A stretch of DNA of 64,000 nt from Sphingobacterium thalpophilum. Lineage in GTDB: Bacteria > Bacteroidota > Bacteroidia > Sphingobacteriales > Sphingobacteriaceae. Where the stretch lies: the NCBI GenBank assembly GCA_945868825.1, contig CAMBMM010000001.1, positions 1-64,000 of the forward strand, written 5' to 3'. The position numbers and the translations under genes are program-made. The notes below the pieces were generated by a model. That model ran no database searches, had not been told where the DNA came from, and saw only the letters and a program-made list of their open reading frames with translations. This document shows, one piece after another, positions 39,327 to 39,879 of the stretch. The number at the start of each line of letters is the position of its first letter. Positions within the stretch are counted from its first letter, which is position 1.

Positions 39327-39381
39327 GGGGGATTAGCTCTCCCGATAGCTAGAGCGTCCCGATGAAAATCGGGAAGGTGAT
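39327..39381 (+). pseudogene. 5' half of a tRNA-Ala copy carrying palindromes
   Basis: Starts GGGGGATTAGCTC, identical to the first 13 nt of the intact tRNA-Ala at 39405. The D-loop is replaced by TCCCGATAGCTA, GAGCG is kept, and the whole anticodon arm is replaced by TCCCGATGAAAATCGGGA, a 7-bp hairpin with a GAAA loop. It ends with GAAGGTGAT, where similarity to tRNA stops; the same 9 nt open the 3' half at 39808. Not a functional tRNA: there is no anticodon and no T-arm. Confidence 0.75.
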
Positions 39382-39404
39382 AGTTACTAATCAAAAATAA
39401 AACC

Positions 39405-39478
39405 GGGGGATTAGCTCATTTGGCTAGAGCGCTTCGCTGGCAGTGAAGAGGTGATCGGTTCGAATCCGATATTCTCCA
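39405..39478 (+). tRNA. tRNA-Ala (GGC)
   Basis: Intact cloverleaf, 74 nt: acceptor GGGGGAT/ATTCTCC (two G-U pairs), D-arm GCTC/GAGC, anticodon arm CTTCG-CTGGCAG-TGAAG with anticodon GGC, T-arm ATCGG-TTCGAAT-CCGAT, discriminator A, no encoded CCA. Decodes GCC/GCU. It is followed at once by a strong terminator. Its 3' end and terminator are repeated exactly 374 bp downstream. The G-U-rich acceptor is less regular than in the tRNA-Met of this window. Confidence 0.92.
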
Positions 39479-39505
39479 CAAAGGCCCCGATTTCGGGGCC
39501 TTTTT
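39468..39505 (+). repeat. 38-bp direct repeat, copy 1 (tRNA-Ala 3' end plus terminator)
   Basis: From GATATTCTCC of the tRNA-Ala acceptor through the GGCCCCGA/TCGGGGCC hairpin to the T-run. Perfectly identical to 39842..39879. The two copies flank the GIY-YIG gene in direct orientation, like att sites of tRNA-targeting elements. Confidence 0.9.
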
Positions 39506-39506
39506 T
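39480..39506 (+). terminator. Terminator of tRNA-Ala
   Basis: AAAGGCCCCGA, short loop, CGGGGCC, T6: a strong intrinsic terminator directly after the tRNA 3' end. Confidence 0.9.
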
Positions 39507-39511
39507 AGTTT

Positions 39512-39530
39512 GGCACTTTGGTGCCCTATT
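39512..39530 (+). terminator. Second small hairpin after tRNA-Ala
   Basis: GGCAC-TTTG-GTGCC followed by CTATTTTTCG, six nt behind the main terminator. Backup terminator or part of the mobile unit. Confidence 0.45.
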
Positions 39531-39546
39531 TTTCGTTAAGGTGAGC

Positions 39547-39798
39547 ATGACTTTCGTAGTGTATATCCTTTATTCCAAGAACCTAGATTGCTATTACATT
39601 GGCCATACCCAAAATTTGAGTATTCGTCTAAGTCAACATAATAGCCAAGTCTCCAAATCAACAAAAAAGACTAACGATTGGGAAATAGTTTACCAAGATT
39701 GTTATGAAACAAGGTCTGCTGCGGTGCATAGAGAGTTAGCAATTAAACGCAAGAAAAGTCGCAAATACATTGAACTGTTGCTAAACAAGTTATCCTAG
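39547..39798 (+). CDS. GIY-YIG nuclease domain protein (single-domain, YhbQ/URI type)
   Basis: 83 residues from ATG 39547 (MTFVVYILYS); the ORF stays open upstream only because it reads through the tRNA and terminator. GIY-YIG signature as VYILYS at 5-10 and YYIGHT at 17-22, then LSIRLSQHN with the catalytic Arg, W44 in NDWEIVYQD, and the metal-binding Glu in RELAIKRKKSRKYIELLL. Known members are nucleases, some in homing or repair; those next to rRNA or tRNA genes in this phylum are of unknown role. The gene lies between two perfect 38-bp repeats and inside a split tRNA-Ala copy, which suggests a mobile cassette. Confidence 0.88.
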   Translation: MTFVVYILYSKNLDCYYIGHTQNLSIRLSQHNSQVSKSTKKTNDWEIVYQDCYETRSAAVHRELAIKRKKSRKYIELLLNKLS

Positions 39799-39807
39799 AA
39801 CTTTCGA

Positions 39808-39855
39808 GAAGGTGATCGGTTCTCCCGATAGGCATCGGGACGATATTCTCCACAA
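39808..39855 (+). pseudogene. 3' half of a tRNA-Ala copy carrying a palindrome
   Basis: Starts GAAGGTGATCGGTT as in the intact tRNA-Ala variable loop and T-stem (minus AG). The T-loop CGAATCC is then replaced by CTCCCGATAGGCATCGGGAC, and it resumes with GATATTCTCCACA, the acceptor 3' strand. Joined to the 5' half at 39327..39381 it would give one full tRNA-shaped sequence in which D-loop, anticodon arm and T-loop are all TCCCGAT-type elements. Confidence 0.75.
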
Positions 39856-39879
39856 AGGCCCCGATTTCGGGGCCTTTTT
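39842..39879 (+). repeat. 38-bp direct repeat, copy 2
   Basis: Identical to 39468..39505: acceptor 3' strand of tRNA-Ala, GGCCCCGA/TCGGGGCC hairpin, T-run. Also acts as a terminator (hairpin 39854..39879). Confidence 0.9.

Follow-up and report, generated by a model that had tools for sequence, protein, structure and literature searches.

Integrative elements such as ICEs, satellites and tycheposons use tRNA genes as insertion sites and leave a functional tRNA behind; they work with tyrosine or serine recombinases and usually restore the gene at one end only. SLX1, which acts together with SLX4, is a nuclease of branched DNA; we know of no link between it and tRNA genes. In phages T4/T6, SegB is a free-standing GIY-YIG homing endonuclease of the tRNA region; it has been implicated in the breakage of DNA that holds tRNA genes, and it promotes, through short homologies, the amplification of the tRNA-segB segment in tandem (PMC13096335). 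Short dispersed palindromes are known in bacteria as GTAG- and CGTC-tagged REPs and REP/RAYT palindromes (PMC3733652, PMC6006769), and TCCCG is not present in the main text of either paper.

The locus described here resembles each of these systems in part. Its closest documented relative in behaviour is SegB, likewise a GIY-YIG nuclease gene beside tRNA genes, but SegB is phage-borne, and the portions of that report drawn on here describe neither a rescue tRNA within a split tRNA gene nor palindrome scars (PMC13096335). As with ICEs, satellites and tycheposons, a tRNA gene is entered and a working tRNA is left; unlike them, this locus has a whole rescue tRNA, a GIY-YIG nuclease and no recombinase gene, and both broken halves are scarred. 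Its short palindromes recall those of REP/RAYT systems, but its genome has no RAYT and the tRNA segment is replaced, not merely flanked. By sequence and by fold, the solved structures closest to its nuclease are UPF0213 (BH0048, 1zg2) and SLX1. In the open-access literature, where absence is weak evidence, we found no description of TCCCG palindromes or of GIY-YIG cassettes in tRNA genes.

Overall, we believe that the locus is probably a minimal, homing-like mobile cassette that targets tRNA genes, carries a rescue tRNA and exchanges one DNA palindrome for another. Comparison between genomes shows a split tRNA gene; in the insert, a stand-alone GIY-YIG nuclease follows a whole tRNA that matches the split gene in isotype and usually has a terminator. 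It also shows that, in each half of the broken gene, a usually palindromic tRNA segment, most often the exact 17-base anticodon arm, has given way to a TCCCG...CGGGA palindrome.

In the window, by which we mean the whole 64 kb stretch of DNA analysed here, the cluster at 39327-39854 comprises an intact tRNA-Ala(GGC) and a GIY-YIG nuclease ORF, both lying between two tRNA-Ala remnants, each of which bears a TCCCGAT-N4-ATCGGGA palindrome. An lpxB-like gene (named by its product) is followed by the 5' remnant with its palindrome, the intact tRNA-Ala, a terminator, the GIY-YIG gene, the 3' remnant with its palindrome, the same terminator again and the old downstream flank:

39327..39403, plus strand: 5' remnant of the ancestral tRNA-Ala, with tRNA positions 1-27 (D-loop altered), a palindrome for the anticodon arm, a 7-base variable region (AGGTGAT) and an AT-rich spacer
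39340..39351, plus strand: half palindrome TCCCGATAGCTA in the D-loop of the 5' remnant, identified by sequence
39357..39374, plus strand: palindrome P1, TCCCGATGAAAATCGGGA, which replaces tRNA positions 28-44 (the anticodon arm) exactly
39405..39479, plus strand: intact tRNA-Ala(GGC), read as the rescue copy
39480..39505, plus strand: terminator of the intact tRNA-Ala
39547..39798, plus strand: GIY-YIG nuclease gene, 83 aa
39804..39853, plus strand: 3' remnant of tRNA-Ala, which starts in the anticodon region and reaches the 3' end
39823..39840, plus strand: palindrome P2, TCCCGATAGGCATCGGGA, which replaces the T-loop segment 58-62 (GAATC)
39854..39879, plus strand: second copy of the terminator, then the ancestral downstream flank

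An earlier, sequence-only reading of this DNA had placed P1 and P2 at exactly these positions, and had described a 5' piece in which the acceptor and D-stem are kept and the anticodon arm is swapped exactly. That description holds: tRNA positions 1-13 are matched exactly, a half palindrome lies in the D-loop and positions 28-44 are replaced. Its claim that the T-loop is replaced in the 3' piece is right for the 3' part of the loop, TTC-GAATC-CGAT having become TTC-palindrome-CGAT, but one stem base is also replaced. The two pieces were also said to spell one tRNA-Ala; simple joining fails because they overlap, the 5' piece reaching about position 51 and the 3' piece beginning near the anticodon. 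For the same reason, one insertion that simply splits one tRNA is insufficient without more. The 3' piece and the intact tRNA-Ala have 39 identical bases in common, terminator included. The reading overlooked the GIY-YIG gene at 39547-39798, and it did not recognise that an insert has entered a tRNA gene here and supplies a rescue tRNA. The GIY-YIG gene is the single plausible ORF between the remnants, where no site-specific recombinase gene is found, and a search of the window against Rfam gave no match to an intron. Within the 64 kb, P1 and P2 are the sole matches to the palindrome (0 expected, from 100 shuffles), and the strict palindrome has 7 copies in the whole 1.66 Mb genome that holds the window (G000, 4 contigs), four of them within its two tRNA/GIY-YIG loci. 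Across this genome the palindrome is unevenly spread; an even spread would have spoken against the sequence-only reading. The relatives of this genome and the kin of its nuclease belong to the Bacteroidota.

The GIY-YIG frame stays open over 39451-39798, that is, into the tRNA, where a GTG would give a protein beginning MIGSNPIFSTK. Gene callers may therefore place the start inside the tRNA, here and likewise at loci L050 and L054, and some database GIY-YIG proteins may have tRNA-derived N-termini. Elsewhere in the window, two DUF805 cis-regulatory RNA motifs (RF03081) lie on the minus strand at 518-586 and 1151-1219, near a tRNA-Met.

The case for insertion is strengthened by empty sites. At the tRNA-Ala site, two genomes of the same genus (G003 and G004) have the same neighbours, one ordinary tRNA-Ala and one terminator, with no palindrome and no GIY-YIG gene, and comparison with L065/L066 shows that the ancestral upstream flank joins at the 5' remnant. 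One further gene in the window genome matches the nuclease alignment, and the tRNA-Val locus that holds it is arranged in the same way. This second site is empty in G002-G005, occupied in G000, and scarred without a GIY-YIG gene in G001. In the occupied locus, the 5' remnants are continuous with the ancestral promoter region and the 3' remnant with the ancestral terminator and flank, while the intact tRNA-Val inside carries a different, new terminator. Compared with one another, the empty, occupied and nuclease-less sites show that a cassette with its own complete tRNA entered a tRNA gene and can decay. A nuclease gene thus lies within an interrupted target that has empty alleles, for both tRNA-Ala and tRNA-Val, in same-genus genomes, as is the case for homing elements; the insert is a whole separate tRNA gene that splits the old one, rather than an intron or intein. 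From sequence comparison, we infer mobility and cleavage by the cassette nuclease.

The arrangement is not peculiar to this genome. When 84,980 species genomes were scanned with the nuclease alignment, 80 loci emerged, spread over Bacteroidota, Ignavibacteriota, Cloacimonadota and Fidelibacterota, together with one Woesearchaeota bin that is a possible contaminant. Counts over these loci are not counts of independent events, since the loci have common ancestry and were selected for their closeness to the query. Among 60 relatives the palindrome pattern is patchy. The same architecture occurs at tRNA-Ala (G049) and tRNA-Leu(CAA) (G039), the layout recurs in other families of the class, and palindrome-bearing remnants with no nuclease on the fetched piece of contig occur at tRNA-Trp (G038) and, as tandem arrays, at tRNA-Lys (G058). 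In 52 of the 80 loci a tRNA on the same strand ends no more than 300 bases upstream of the nuclease. Of 78 testable loci, 41 have a palindrome between -20 and +80 relative to the nuclease stop codon, whereas among control windows from the same loci 3 of 2550 have one; upstream (450 bases), a palindrome is present in 21 of 63 (0.3 expected). The remaining 37 of the 78 have no recognisable palindrome at the stop codon, which counts against the cassette reading. Where no tRNA had been called, 5S rRNA was considered as a second target and rejected: Rfam gave tRNAs only, and most such loci have tRNA remnants.

Fidelity to isotype is pronounced. In 44 of 48 loci the isotype of the remnant behind the nuclease agrees with that of the preceding intact tRNA (permutation mean 13.7, maximum 22 in 10,000), so that, as at integrative elements, an intact tRNA of the same isotype is left, here and for the tRNA-Ala of the window. 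On the nuclease tree isotype changes 20 times, against a shuffled mean of 44.9; for loci with a named organism there are 15 changes, against 25.4 when shuffled within phylum (minimum 22 of 200) and 23.5 when shuffled within order (minimum 18). The alignment has 84 columns and many forks are weak, so that the clustering, and not the branching order, is the result. Judged from these sequences, the nuclease tree tracks isotype beyond taxonomy. Tandem arrays of tRNA remnants, with units of about 73-112 bases, were seen at L096, L177, L113, L117, L057 and L059; several sit at contig ends, and such arrays therefore probably break short-read assemblies.

A rule governs where the palindromes fall. When TCCCG-N(4-15)-CGGGA palindromes were placed in tRNA coordinates by an ungapped, end-anchored match of both flanks, 111 copies mapped in tRNA remnants, which bears out the earlier suggestion that the exchange of tRNA hairpins or loops for a palindrome is not random. 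The anticodon arm is replaced with both ends within one base in 59 of the 111 (56 with zero offset and 17 bases removed), where random placement with the same deletion lengths would yield about 3.5%; the others lie in the T arm (22), in the D arm (12) or elsewhere in the anticodon arm (18). This exact-arm class spans 39 loci and nine tRNA species: Ala, Asp, Gly, Leu, two Lys, Met, Pro and Val. The tRNA segments removed are usually inverted repeats themselves (CTTGCATGGCATGCAAG, CGAGTTCG, GACTC, GCATGC, CTAGAG, AATT). Over 39 distinct classes of lost segment, outer Watson-Crick pairs make up a mean share of 0.54, compared with 0.10 in segments of the same length (largest of 5000 draws, 0.24), and with the exact-arm classes set aside it is 0.46 against 0.12 (0 of 5000 draws). 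Neither GACTC nor CGAGTTCG forms a stem in the folded tRNA, and DNA palindromes rather than RNA structure are therefore indicated. The incoming stem is preserved under change, the sixth pair being AT in 69, CG in 13, GC in 2 and TA in 1 of 87 distinct palindromes. In an Asp remnant (L156 2872-2950), the palindromes ACCTGCCAGAGGCAGGT and TCCCAGTGGGA occur in addition to TCCCGC..GCGGGA, and other palindrome families may thus also land in such remnants.

The nuclease protein of the window matches Pfam PF01541 (E 2e-15; 57 bits, against a cut-off of 22.6) and has the domain with the catalytic Tyr, Arg and Glu of the GIY-YIG superfamily; Y6, Y17, G19, R27, H31 and E63 are invariant among 46 relatives, and the catalytic residues are intact. 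No NCBIfam family scored above its cut-off. UPF0213 proteins, then SLX1, are the nearest solved structures by sequence, and an AlphaFold2 model (pLDDT 88.8) matches UPF0213 1zg2 and SLX1-SLX4 ahead of I-TevI and UvrC. Since its SLX1 relatives cut branched DNA, a hairpin or cruciform target would fit this nuclease. A phage or plasmid origin was considered and set aside: the nuclease gave no match in collections of phage, plasmid and viral contigs at the settings used.

Taken together, a general pathway for the cassette can be proposed. The nuclease would recognise a tRNA gene as a hairpin or cruciform and cut at or near the hairpin base, and repair from a donor copy, through the short tRNA arms beside the palindromes, would install the cassette. 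The inner arms that flank palindromes in the remnants are short, roughly 5-20 bases on each side, and homology arms of a donor or circle would leave remnants of this kind. With the target hairpin lost and a palindrome at both junctions, the target site would be destroyed, while the rescue tRNA would maintain the function of the broken gene; repeated cutting and recombination may then give rise to the tandem remnant arrays. Read-through that starts at the tRNA promoter may drive expression of the GIY-YIG gene, which lies just behind the tRNA terminator. Homology repair explains palindromes at both ends within an isotype, but by itself it leaves the same exact boundary in nine tRNA species unaccounted for, which counts against the model; a structural rule is needed, hence the reading as an exchange of hairpins. 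We know of no enzyme for base-precise exchange of one palindrome for another. At the same time, the rescue tRNA should be a target too, and the cassette model gives no account of its protection, which counts against it. The intact tRNA-Ala of the window differs from same-genus homologues mainly in the anticodon stem (CTTCGCTGGCAGTGAAG vs CTTGCATGGCATGCAAG) and the D-loop, changes that could be a recoding that protects it against the nuclease; the rescue tRNA of G049 is canonical. L142 (CTACGCTGGCAGCGTAG) and L170 (CTACACTGGCAGTGTAG) have a similar appearance.

A broader proposal, which we put forward tentatively and regard as somewhat doubtful, is that this represents a new, palindrome-for-palindrome mode of DNA mobility, in which a small SLX1-like GIY-YIG nuclease recognises a hairpin extruded from an inverted repeat of a tRNA gene and cuts its base, TCCCG...CGGGA replaces the hairpin, and the same exchange in trans on terminators and other hairpins seeds the dispersed palindromes of Bacteroidota. 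The strict palindrome has 95 copies in G043 and 38 in G027. In 58 dispersed contexts, mostly from these two genomes, flank pairing averages -9.3 kcal/mol, against -7.2 for re-paired flanks (z -5.1; 0 of 300), and since the flanks are complementary beyond these controls the preference for hairpins is general. Sites that resemble terminator loops are found at L269, L278 and L273. The sequence-only reading had proposed a REP-like palindrome that targets hairpins, and in this it came close, missing the GIY-YIG gene and the insertion. A TCCCGATAAATCGGGA palindrome also lies inside the RNase P RNA gene (RF00010, L012 838-1197) at G000:C1:430869-430884 (L012 870-885), and at L061 and L062 a palindrome is nested in another dispersed palindrome, in repeats of the GTCATTGCGAGG..GAAGCAATCC type.

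Because the palindrome is also found far from GIY-YIG genes, it may have a life of its own, which speaks against the cassette reading. As an alternative, two independent parasites could share the site: a REP-like palindrome that a RAYT (TnpA_REP) or some other enzyme of the host carries into hairpin loops anywhere, and a GIY-YIG homing gene whose pseudo-tRNAs are tolerant landing sites. In its favour are the mutually complementary flanks of dispersed TCCCGATAGCTATCGGGA copies in G043, G027 and other genomes, terminator loops included, and a weak correlation of the number of palindromes with the number of RAYT genes (Spearman 0.28), as also with that of GIY-YIG genes (0.32). We nonetheless think this pairing fairly unlikely. 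RAYT is ruled out as the mover in the window genome, which has no Y1_Tnp match (PF01797) and yet keeps four of its seven strict palindromes in its two GIY-YIG loci; a palindrome is near RAYT at 5 of 20 loci, against the 41 of 78 with one at the GIY-YIG stop codon; and mere insertion would not excise exactly the 17-base anticodon arm.

An RNA explanation, in which the remnants persist as tRNA-shaped RNAs that act as decoys, as processing signals or as spacers of a polycistronic tRNA transcript, and in which RNA selection has shaped the palindromes, strikes us as improbable. It can draw on the covariation of the stem positions described above, on a cloverleaf-like layout that survives the anticodon-arm swap and on the good folding of the 5' remnant in the window (z -4.8), but that folding comes largely from the palindromes themselves and the 3' remnant folds no better than shuffles (z -0.8). 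Each kind of remnant is missing one acceptor strand, the 3' strand in 5' remnants and the 5' strand in 3' remnants, which means that neither can serve as a charged tRNA, and the deliberate tRNA-shaped noncoding RNA of the sequence-only reading finds no support here. Moreover, the swaps in the T and D arms take out sequence palindromes (GACTC, CGAGTTCG) rather than tRNA stems, same-genus species do without the cassette at the same site, and no known RNA family was found for the remnants.

That a tRNA gene was simply duplicated in tandem and then decayed, or that the assembly is wrong, is very improbable: L125 and L150 are tandem tRNA-terminator-GIY units and several contigs end in such arrays, but the structure has exact boundaries, a conserved TCCCG/CGGGA and isotype tracking. 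The earlier reading had named absence from close relatives as a sign of an assembly error; the scar is indeed absent from same-genus species, but the same structure is found again in many assemblies made independently, among them those of named isolates and one complete genome (Chitinophaga sp. E66, L117), which makes such an error unlikely.

Cleavage and homing are directly testable, because close species offer both empty and occupied sites. If the cassette reading is true, a very small nuclease-only mobile element of about 450 bases would live in tRNA genes by supplying the gene it breaks, would be present in at least four bacterial phyla, and would leave scars that follow a rule, palindrome for palindrome with base precision. 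Such an element would also account for some of the dispersed palindromes of Bacteroidota, for contig breaks at tRNA arrays and for ORF calls that start within tRNAs.
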